From Candidatus Zymogenus saltonus (GTDB lineage Bacteria; Desulfobacterota; Zymogenia; Zymogenales; Zymogenaceae), in contig JAFGIX010000030.1 in NCBI GenBank assembly GCA_016929395.1, positions 1-52,157 of the forward strand: DNA of 52,157 nt, in the 5' to 3' direction. The first letter of the stretch is position 1. Each line of letters opens with the position of its first letter. Under the pieces are notes generated by a model, which made no database searches, was not told the DNA's origin, and saw nothing but the letters and a program-made list of their open reading frames with translations. Of the stretch, positions 49,126 to 51,932 are shown piece after piece. A program made the translations under genes and the position numbers.

Positions 49126-49435
49126 CTGGACGGATAAAAAGCCTTTAATCCCTGTCATTCTGGCTGTTGTGTTTCAACGGGAAGGGGTTAGACTTCGACG
49201 ATCGAAGTTCCTTACGAGACTTAACCAGTCTTTCGATACTACGGATCGATTTTGATAAGGAAATCAGATGATTTAAACCTTTGAAAAAGGCTTGCAAATA
49301 TTGCGATCCCAAATATGGCAAGTAACTAGCGTTTTTAAGATTTCTGCAAATAAACGGAATTTTGAAGATAATTATGCAAGATTAATGGGGCAGGCTTATC
49401 AGAAAAATTTGTTTGAGGAATGAAGATAACTATTA
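49126..49435. other. Intergenic stretch entering AT-rich island, no gene seen
   Basis: Composition falls to AT-rich by about 49250. I see no gene, hairpin with T-tract or direct repeat that would mark an island edge. Confidence 0.4.
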
Positions 49436-49741
49436 TTATCTTTTTTTGTAAGAAATACCTGTTGCCGTTCCTGTTTTTATAACATATACCGTCTTATCTG
49501 GCCTATCTATATGATACATAACTCTGGTATTACTTTCCTTCCATCTATAAATTCCCTTATATTTTTTACCCTGTAATTTTACTATACGTTTCGGTTTAGG
49601 ATGATAAAAGGGATTGTTTTTAACGTCAATTTCAAAATGATCTTTGCATAACTGTTGGTCTGGATGAATTATGAAAAAGGAGTAGTATTCCTCTTCTATG
49701 TTGTCAGTTCCAAAGCCGATCTTCCATTCTATATCAGACAT
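49436..49741 (-). CDS. RelE/ParE-fold toxin-like protein
   Basis: The protein has 101 residues from ATG 49741. The C-terminal half has the RelE-type order: a helix ending in DVKNNPFYHPKPKRIVKLQG, then KYKGIYRWKESNTRVMYHIDRPDKTVYVIKTGTA, then ISYKK. Basic Arg, Lys and a late Tyr sit where RelE-fold ribonucleases place catalytic residues. It overlaps the end of the preceding gene by 8 bases (ATGTCTGA), the usual antitoxin-toxin coupling. An in-frame ATG at 49777 is possible. AT-rich codon use differs from flanking genes. It may also be a RelE-fold protein without toxin function. Confidence 0.65.
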   Translation of the reverse strand: MSDIEWKIGFGTDNIEEEYYSFFIIHPDQQLCKDHFEIDVKNNPFYHPKPKRIVKLQGKKYKGIYRWKESNTRVMYHIDRPDKTVYVIKTGTATGISYKKR

Positions 49742-49997
49742 TGCTCTTTTCTGATAATTTCTTTTTAAGAGACTCATACCTTGATAAGACTTCTTGTCTT
49801 AATTCTGGTATAGAATTTATTTCTGCGGCTTCTTCCCAGCCCCAAATGTAATTTTGTATTTCTTCTTTATCCCCAGAAAAAGATAGTTTTAAAAGTCCAC
49901 ATAAAAGATCGGCTTTATCATCTTCTGAAATATTATCAAGAAGAAAGCTAATTCTATCTTCAATAGAATTTTCTATATTATTTTTCATCTTTGCCAT
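49734..49997 (-). CDS. Small acidic helical protein, putative antitoxin
   Basis: I do not recognise this 87-residue protein by family. It is acidic and predicted helical (ISFLLDNISEDDKADLLCGLLKLSF, then IPELRQEVLSRYESLKKKL). It overlaps the upstream DUF3467-like gene by 20 bases (or 11 with ATG 49988) and the RelE-like gene downstream by 8, so the three are translationally coupled. Size, charge and place directly before a RelE-like gene suggest an antitoxin, but no DNA-binding motif is visible. Confidence 0.55.
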   Translation of the reverse strand: MAKMKNNIENSIEDRISFLLDNISEDDKADLLCGLLKLSFSGDKEEIQNYIWGWEEAAEINSIPELRQEVLSRYESLKKKLSEKSNV

Positions 49998-50292
49998 AAG
50001 ATTTTTTATATATATCGTAATTTGTTTTAAGGGCTTTAATAATAGGCTCCATTAATCCAATTGGTATGGCTATTTCTACTTGAACTGATGCAGCCATAAT
50101 TTTAGAATCAATCACATCATTTTTTTCTGTATCAGTTAGTGGTGGTCTCGCATCACAAAATGTAAAAGTAAAGTCAAAAGGCCCGTGATTAACTGTAAAG
50201 TAATTGGCATAGATCCTTTTAGATTCGGTATCTCTCGTTGGGATTACTTTAACATCAATTGTCTTATTTGATTGTTTATCATTATCCAACAT
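49978..50292 (-). CDS. DUF3467-like protein
   Basis: The 104-residue protein fits the DUF3467 pattern: YANYFTVNHGPFDFTFTFCD near 28-47, a loop, then VQVEIAIPIGLMEPIIKALKTNYDIYKKSYG to the end. The family is of unknown function, small and usually cytoplasmic. AAGGAG lies before the ATG, the only strong ribosome site of the three-gene cassette, so translation of all three probably starts here. Its AT-rich composition suggests acquisition with the two genes downstream. Confidence 0.7.
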   Translation of the reverse strand: MLDNDKQSNKTIDVKVIPTRDTESKRIYANYFTVNHGPFDFTFTFCDARPPLTDTEKNDVIDSKIMAASVQVEIAIPIGLMEPIIKALKTNYDIYKKSYGKDEK

Positions 50293-50726
50293 ATTATGTA
50301 CTCCTTATCTATATCTCATGTGATGTCATATAATACCTTATATAATTATCCTCCTCTGCATAAAATATATCAATACTTTTCTATTTATTTTTAAAAAAAG
50401 TTATTGTAAAATACAATAATAAAATGTTTTTACTCATTTAATCCCTCTACTGCTAAATTGTACATCTCAAACAAGAAAATGATTAATCACACTTTTCCCA
50501 GAATATCATTTCCAAATGCAGTCAAACCATTTATTTGTCGATGATTCTGTTAAACTCTCTTAAATCCTTCACCGGCTTGAAGGGAACCGGGTATTTCCGA
50601 CCGCAAGGAGTAATCTCCCCAACAGAGTATGTAAAGCCCCTCCGGTTTATACGCCCGGCGGGGCTTTTTTAGCTAGATGAATGAAACGGTTCGATCTCGA
50701 ATAAAACTCTCTTCCCAAAGCCCCGG
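50293..50726. other. AT-rich intergenic stretch, possible small RNA before terminator
   Basis: No plus-strand gene lies upstream of the terminator at 50634-50670, so a short transcript from about 50530 is possible. Inverted GC-rich phrases (CACCGG...CCGGGT near 50570-50592) would be inside it. The promoter is not clear. Nothing else is seen. Confidence 0.35.
50634..50670 (+). terminator. Rho-independent terminator without an obvious upstream gene
   Basis: AAGCCCC-T-CCGG (50634-50645) pairs with CCGG-C-GGGGCTT (50655-50666) with a single mismatch, and T's run to 50670. The T-tract is on the plus strand; in the other direction, after the alcohol dehydrogenase gene, only three T follow. Confidence 0.8.
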
Positions 50727-51932
50727 CTACCCGTGCCTCAACGCCACCTTGATCGCCCCGTTCTTCCCCTTGTTCAAAAACAGGTCGATCCCCTTGAGGT
50801 AGTCCTCCATCGGGAGCACGTGTGTGACAAAGCCGTCGAAGTTGAGATTTCCCTCCTTGTACAGGATATAGGCCGCCTCGAAGCTCGTCATCTCTTTGCC
50901 CCGAAATGTCTCCATCCCGTGGCAGTTGATCCCTTTAAGCTCCACCTCTTGATACCAGAAGGGGGAGTAGTCGAGCCTCTTCGGTGAGAAGTTTATCCCC
51001 ACGATGACCACCGTCCCCTCGGCTCTTGCCCACCTGGCGGCGTTCTTCAGGGTCTGGTCGTTTCCCACCGTGTCGTATATAACGTCAAAGCCGCCGATCA
51101 CCATCTCGTTTCTGAAGGGGGCCTTGAAGTATTTTCCTCCCGTGATGTCGGCCACCTGTTTAAATATATCCCGCCCCTCGATTATCCCGGTCGCCCCGAG
51201 CCTCTTCGCCATATCGGTCTGGTGGGGGTAGCGGGTCGCGATGTAGACCTCGGAGTCGGGCGCCAGCGCCCTTACCACGCTCAGCATGTTCAGCCCGATC
51301 GACCCCGCCCCGATTATCAGGACCTTCTCCTTCGGCATCGGCGGCCTCTTAAGGACGGCCCTCACGGAGCAGGCGGTCGGCTCGATCAATATCGCGTCCT
51401 CGTCCGGGATGTCCTTGTCGACCTTCATGAGCTGGGTCTTGTGGACGACCATGTAGGGCGAAAACCCGCCCCCCTGGTTTTTGGGCATATCGGGCCAGCC
51501 CGGGTTCTCGCAGAGGAGGTAGTTCCCTTTTGCGCACTCCCGGCACATGGGATCAGCCTCATTCTGGAAGCAGCTGGGCCAGTCGATGGTTAGGATGACC
51601 CTGTCCCCGTCGCTGAACCCTACCGCCCCCGTTCCCGCCTCTACCACATCCCCCACCACTTCGTGGCCGATGAACTTCCTCGTTACCGCAGGGACGGCGG
51701 CGGGCGCGATCTTCGGGTCTATCTCCAGGAAGATGAAGTGGATGTCGGAGCCGCATATCCCGCAGAGCCTGTTTTTCACCTTGACCCAGTTCGGGCCCGG
51801 GAGCTTCGGCTCTTCCACCTCCCCGTATCTCACCGGGGAGAGGGGCGAGAGGGCCGCCCGCTTCCAGATCGGCGAGAGCGCCTTTATCAGCGCGATCTTC
51901 TTTATATCGGCGTCGAAATATAGTCCTTTCAT
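50727..51932 (-). CDS. Zinc-dependent alcohol dehydrogenase (MDR family)
   Basis: The 401-residue protein is a medium-chain dehydrogenase/reductase. Catalytic zinc ligands are Cys in CGICGSDIH near 58 and GHEVVG near 89-94. A structural zinc site follows in the SCFQNEADPMCRECAKGNYLLC region. The Rossmann motif is VLIIGAGSIGLNML near 204-217, for NAD(P)H. The N-terminus is about 35 residues longer than in classic ADH. It oxidises or reduces an alcohol or polyol whose identity is not readable. GAGGAGA precedes the ATG. It is read alone toward the AT-rich island. Confidence 0.92.
   Translation of the reverse strand: MKGLYFDADIKKIALIKALSPIWKRAALSPLSPVRYGEVEEPKLPGPNWVKVKNRLCGICGSDIHFIFLEIDPKIAPAAVPAVTRKFIGHEVVGDVVEAGTGAVGFSDGDRVILTIDWPSCFQNEADPMCRECAKGNYLLCENPGWPDMPKNQGGGFSPYMVVHKTQLMKVDKDIPDEDAILIEPTACSVRAVLKRPPMPKEKVLIIGAGSIGLNMLSVVRALAPDSEVYIATRYPHQTDMAKRLGATGIIEGRDIFKQVADITGGKYFKAPFRNEMVIGGFDVIYDTVGNDQTLKNAARWARAEGTVVIVGINFSPKRLDYSPFWYQEVELKGINCHGMETFRGKEMTSFEAAYILYKEGNLNFDGFVTHVLPMEDYLKGIDLFLNKGKNGAIKVALRHG

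Follow-up and report, generated by a model that had tools for sequence, protein, structure and literature searches.

The window, by which we mean the whole 52,157-nt stretch of Candidatus Zymogenus saltonus DNA that was analyzed, contains a cassette of three overlapping genes on its minus strand (50292–49436), with all three open reading frames present in the sequence. Gene 1 (49978–50292, minus strand) codes for a divergent DUF3467 protein of 104 amino acids, which scores above the cut-off of Pfam family PF11950 and has orthologues in other cassettes. Gene 2 (49734–49997, minus strand) codes for a putative antitoxin of 87 amino acids, helical and acidic, which belongs to a conserved family and occupies the antitoxin position. 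Gene 3 (49436–49741, minus strand) codes for a putative toxin of 101 amino acids and pI 9.4, assigned to the RelE/ParE superfamily by profile comparison; its homologues favour the start at 49741 over a longer frame beginning at 49777. Genes 1 and 2 overlap by 20 nt and genes 2 and 3 by 8 nt (ATGTCTGA). A ribosome-binding site, AAGGAG (50301–50306, minus strand), lies 8 nt 5′ of the gene 1 ATG. The description given in an earlier note on this DNA, of three small genes overlapping by 8 to 20 bases behind one good ribosome site, was therefore correct. No strong ribosome site precedes gene 2 or gene 3, which, together with the overlapping frames, fits translational coupling. In a related cassette (G313, see below) the ribosome site is GGAGG, 4 nt ahead of the ATG.

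Upstream signals were searched for as well. A promoter-like sequence, TTGATA-17-GATAAT (10/12 matches; 50345–50373, minus strand), is a weak candidate; the promoter scan returned 7 sites in the region against 7.4 expected by chance. Operator palindromes above chance were not found upstream.

The GC content of the cassette is 31%, compared to 55–60% in the transporter and dehydrogenase genes on either side, and the AT-rich stretch (approximately 49130–50560) exceeds the cassette on both sides. Other kilobases of the window, at 2–3, 8–9, 12–13 and 34–36 kb, have a GC content of only 38–40%, so the compositional contrast with the neighbours is real but less unusual than the earlier note had claimed. 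Bordering the AT-rich stretch and adjoining the dehydrogenase gene, a GC-rich hairpin followed by six T residues lies on the plus strand (50633–50672). This terminator-like element was skipped by the terminator scan because its loop is 9 nt long.

Conservation, distribution and surroundings of the cassette

We searched 395 genomes of the phylum Desulfobacterota with the gene 3 protein as a query. Two clear homologues, 43–45% identical, were found, in genomes G313 (family f98) and G112 (family f9). In both, a DUF3467 gene, a middle gene and the toxin gene stand in immediate succession, an order identical to that in the window. The G313 genes overlap by 4 and 8 nt, while those of G112 are separated by a 1-nt gap and then overlap by 4 nt. 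A separate search with gene 1 recovered the same two loci (44% identity in G313 and 34% in G112) together with solitary DUF3467 relatives. A profile built from the three toxins gave a bimodal distribution of scores: three matches with E < 1e-49, each in a full cassette, and a next match at 7.5e-7, from which point upward ordinary RelE/ParE proteins were found. Toxins of this type are present in exactly three of the 395 genomes, and all three have the whole cassette. Linkage of the three families across genomes, proposed earlier as a check, is thus conserved. Leave-one-out profiles recovered every member of each family, with E values of 1e-22 to 1e-28 for the toxin, 1e-17 to 1e-30 for DUF3467 and 2e-4 to 4e-10 for the middle protein.

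That the three genes are chance neighbours was considered and rejected, since the trio recurs and adjacency in three cases of three is too improbable: the chance adjacency for one toxin was estimated at about 7/395 × 600/3,000,000, i.e. a few in a million. The number of full copies known is only three, and two of these are on short MAG contigs of 6.5 and 9.2 kb. Relatives of the three proteins were not found in viral contigs; the window toxin had no match in plasmids or phages, the middle protein none in phages and the DUF3467 protein none in plasmids. We conclude that the three genes constitute a rare but conserved cassette.

Among the genomes searched, none from the same genus or the same family has the cassette. 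Its neighbour genes are unrelated in each of the three genomes that do. The cassette is richer in AT than its host in every case (GC of 31 vs about 55%, 32 vs 45% and 39 vs 47%). The patchy distribution, the AT-richness in all three hosts and the unrelated neighbours fit horizontal transfer of a mobile toxin-antitoxin (TA) module. Horizontal transfer, which the earlier note had proposed from composition, is thus plausible, and the marks of an insertion were not seen: no convincing tRNA, direct repeat or att repeat was found at the ends of the cassette, no mobility gene was seen that would prove the transfer, and comparison with the relatives G002 and G003 revealed no clean empty site. In G002 and G003 the neighbouring dehydrogenase is kept and is followed by different genes (a TPR protein or a response regulator, then ndk and rlmN). 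The stretch beyond the dehydrogenase differs in each genome and is possibly an insertion hot spot. The dehydrogenase of the window (50727–51932) is 66–69% identical to genes of family relatives (L079, L080) that are located close to ndk and rlmN. The suggestion that the cassette is a defence unit found no backing: PADLOC models gave no match up to an E value of 1, and no defence genes were seen beside the cassettes. Beyond general analogy, nothing specifically points to a defence function.

The toxin candidate and its putative antitoxin

By profile comparison, the gene 3 protein belongs to the RelE/ParE superfamily, as its earlier description as RelE-like had implied. Comparison of the gene 3 family with 11 ordinary RelE/ParE toxins by hhalign gave a probability of 97.8% (E 7.4e-13). 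A generic profile of 11 ordinary RelE/ParE proteins scored the cassette toxins at 28–40 bits, compared to 10.7 bits for the best of 900 shuffled sequences. The best PHROG match of gene 3 was the RelE-like toxin phrog_1213 (E 0.0046) and the best PDB match the archaeal RelE chain 1wmi_A (E 0.037). Taken singly, none of the three cassette toxins matched a Pfam family, and gene 3 had no NCBIfam match either. The next-best matches of the cassette toxin profile are ordinary RelE/ParE proteins; most of those inspected had a short overlapping upstream gene, and all four that were scanned matched ParE_toxin PF05016. The cassette toxins are basic in all three copies (pI 9.4–9.8). An AlphaFold model of the gene 3 toxin from single sequence (pLDDT 51) was too poor for fold comparison.

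The site of RelE action is the A site of the ribosome, and in the E. coli enzyme substitutions R61A, R81A and Y87A each lower cleavage, R81A without abolishing it; only the R81A/Y87F double substitution nearly abolishes cleavage (PMC2807027). According to the alignment, the equivalents of Arg61 and Tyr87 are R73 and Y98, and both are kept in all three cassette toxins. The equivalent of Arg81, the arginine of the usual P-R-G-D-x-Y ending, is lost in all three, and a basic tail, YKKR or YKRK, follows at the C-terminus. The mRNA interferase residue set (Arg61, Arg81, Tyr87) is therefore incomplete, and catalysis by the gene 3 protein may be altered or absent. Since R73 and Y98 are kept and single mutants of E. 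coli RelE still cleave, enzymatic activity is plausible, though not certain. A decayed or repurposed module, in which gene 3 retains the fold but is non-toxic for want of the Arg81 equivalent and the operon serves some other regulatory purpose, would account for this loss in all three copies, and ParE-type members of the superfamily lack the RNase residues (PMC11980606). Yet all three copies are intact and free of stops at 43–45% toxin identity, implying that the protein is under selection, and loss of Arg81 alone does not inactivate the E. coli enzyme. We consider such decay or repurposing quite improbable.

The gene 2 protein occupies the antitoxin position, and family-level similarity to DUF6247/Phd proteins weakly suggests that it is related to antitoxins. 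Singly, it matched no Pfam or NCBIfam family, and no DNA-binding domain was recognized in it. Its family is conserved, with members in all three cassettes as well as in genus g14, where homologues (G086, G014) directly precede canonical RelE genes without a DUF3467 gene. The earlier view of a short, acidic, helical protein in antitoxin position is thus borne out as regards position, but acidity does not characterize the family: the window and G112 proteins have pI values of 4.6 and 4.3, and the G313 protein is basic (9.8). Two of the cassette middle proteins matched DUF6247 weakly (E 0.01 each). The four-member gene 2 family aligned by hhalign with the C-terminal half of Phd/YefM-DUF6247 antitoxins (88%, E 3.1e-6), and three of the four members exceeded all shuffles with a DUF6247 antitoxin profile. 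The window copy does not score on its own (3.8 bits), so the link to DUF6247 rests on the family. DUF6247 was not mentioned in the literature searched.

Two of the relatives are incomplete. At L082 (604–1109; G014:C182) the canonical RelE gene after the gene 2 homologue appears frame-shifted, through either sequencing error or pseudogene formation. At L081 (1–440; G051:C333) a gene 2 homologue is followed by remains of the usual toxin start and, after these, by a BrnT-like start (EWDEKKAKRNLLKHGVSFEEA) that is cut off by the contig end, possibly a case of toxin replacement or decay.

The DUF3467 protein and its relatives

The assignment of gene 1 to DUF3467 was confirmed with PF11950 at 28.4 bits (E 1.7e-6; gathering cut-off 25), and the other two cassette members also exceed the cut-off, at 37.1 and 31.3 bits. 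No HTH family was matched in Pfam by the cassette DUF3467 proteins, DUF3467 being the only match. Their pI ranges from 4.8 to 9.3; given this variability and the lack of an operator palindrome, a repressor role is unproven. An AlphaFold model made with three relatives (pLDDT 45) was too poor to use.

Solitary relatives, approximately 40% identical, are present in three genomes of one genus (G008, G044, G079), and the search of the 395 genomes with gene 1 also returned a weak one in G050. A scan of genome contigs with DUF3467 added nothing to the three solitary MAG relatives. Because relatives of gene 1 also occur alone, membership of DUF3467 does not in itself mark a TA protein. In a tree, the cassette proteins and the solitary G008/G044/G079 copies form one subgroup (support 89/100), long-branched and apart from the DUF3467 proteins of Bacteroidota and others.

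Genes 2 and 3 might accordingly be an ordinary two-gene RelE-type TA pair, with DUF3467 a co-transcribed passenger that has no TA function. The genus g14 pairs, which do without DUF3467, the solitary relatives and the lack of TA genes next to most DUF3467 genes are all in line with this explanation. However, DUF3467 holds the same position in all three copies of the toxin subtype even though the copies are only 33–44% identical to one another, so their linkage is old on the scale of sequence divergence, and the genes have moved together. We therefore judge the passenger explanation unlikely.

The DUF3467 family occurs in Bacteroidota, Thermus, Methanosarcina and others. No function has been described for it in the literature searched, where its sole mention is a passing one in a proteomics table. 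In Bacteroides a DUF3467 gene directly precedes rpsL-rpsG-fusA, and in Parabacteroides a copy lies shortly after rpoC (L083 4001–4309; L084 3974–4288). These neighbourhoods hint at a link of DUF3467 to translation or transcription. If the protein were associated with the ribosome or RNA polymerase, it could tether the TA complex to the translation machinery or sense the state of that machinery, tying toxin release to translation; the action of RelE in the A site would agree with this (PMC2807027). The neighbourhoods are limited to Bacteroidota, though, and the cassette proteins fall into the separate long-branched subgroup, which makes a tether or sensor very improbable.

The genome of the host also encodes a second, distant DUF3467 protein (L014 1465–1758; G000:C54), whose gene has a counterpart in a same-genus relative (L013 1477–1770; G001). 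Next to it, in both genomes, are genes for a TetR-like regulator and for a zinc-ribbon-like protein rich in cysteine. As the arrangement is syntenic, this is a separate, vertically inherited gene.

Comparison with known systems and proposed organization

Like type II modules of the RelE/ParE kind (PF05016, PF15781), the cassette combines a basic toxin, placed in the same superfamily by profile, with a short antitoxin gene overlapping it from upstream (by 8 nt in the window, 8 nt in G313 and 4 nt in G112), and its distribution is likewise patchy. It differs from them by the loss of the Arg81 equivalent, by toxins without a Pfam match of their own, by an extra conserved DUF3467 gene and by an antitoxin without a known DNA-binding domain. 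Type II antitoxins are expected to have such a domain and to autoregulate; neither a domain nor an operator palindrome was found here. PaaA2 is a known exception, likewise lacking a DNA-binding domain. In the PaaR2-PaaA2-ParE2 system of E. coli O157:H7 prophage CP-933P the regulator is encoded first, ahead of this antitoxin (PMC8630535). By analogy, this is the closest known layout: a single operon with a third component, an antitoxin and a RelE/ParE-superfamily toxin in the same order. PaaR2, however, is an HTH regulator, whereas gene 1 codes for a DUF3467 protein without a recognized HTH, and no prophage context was found at the cassette. Lacking an HTH regulator as third protein, the cassette is not a member of the PaaR-PaaA-ParE system. 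In toxin-antitoxin-chaperone (TAC) modules the third protein is encoded last, unlike DUF3467, which comes first in its operon and showed no likeness to SecB in the searches. Modules of the TAC type, for example HigBA-SecB-like, have been described (PMC11980606) and share with the cassette a RelE-superfamily toxin and a third protein with the potential to protect the antitoxin.

We propose, with a probability of roughly 0.7, that the cassette is a three-component type II-like TA operon, which encodes the third protein, the antitoxin and the toxin in this order and is analogous to PaaR-PaaA-ParE. The gene 3 toxin would most likely target the ribosome or mRNA in the manner of RelE. The gene 2 antitoxin, without the usual DNA-binding domain, would use a helical segment around W-E-x-x-A-E to wrap the toxin. 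The overlapping frames would couple translation, so that antitoxin is made before toxin. DUF3467, made first from the same message, would be an accessory component, and the separate third proteins of the PaaR-PaaA-ParE and TAC systems provide a model for its role: its likeliest job would be to regulate the operon or to hold, stabilize or place the antitoxin. Toxicity, neutralization, target, autoregulation and everything that DUF3467 may do here are inferred.

The link between DUF3467 and a TA pair, which the earlier note had regarded as possibly new, was not found for RelE-type systems in the literature or family libraries searched. A conserved and plausibly mobile cassette that ties DUF3467 to a RelE-type toxin makes the function of DUF3467 directly testable, and TA systems whose antitoxin has no DNA-binding domain would gain a third component of a new kind. 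A stronger proposal, that DUF3467 is obligatory as the third component of a new three-part TA class, acting as co-antitoxin, chaperone or sensor of the translation state, is tentative, and we would put the odds somewhat against it. If true, it would provide the first function for a widespread family whose genes in Bacteroidota lie beside core ribosomal and RNA polymerase genes.

The DUF6247 comparison also led to an actinobacterial gene pair. In Nonomuraea, Rhodococcus and Streptomyces plasmids, DUF6247 is the C-terminal half of Phd/YefM-like proteins whose genes overlap a downstream gene for a 118-aa protein. While the gene 2 family matches this C-terminal half, the pair differs from the cassette in having a DNA-binding domain fused to the antitoxin and no DUF3467. 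The 118-aa protein has a W-x-x-x-F start and an R-x-x-Y-x-x-D pattern similar to those of the cassette toxin; homology of the two is suggestive by eye but was rejected, as the profile comparison did not support it (hhalign 2%, E 0.024). The overlapping pair is conserved in dozens of actinobacterial plasmid records (L049 1788–2599; L052–L059), from Nonomuraea, Rhodococcus, Streptomyces, Gordonia, Mycobacterium and Prescottella. It is annotated almost only as hypothetical and looks like an unnamed TA family.
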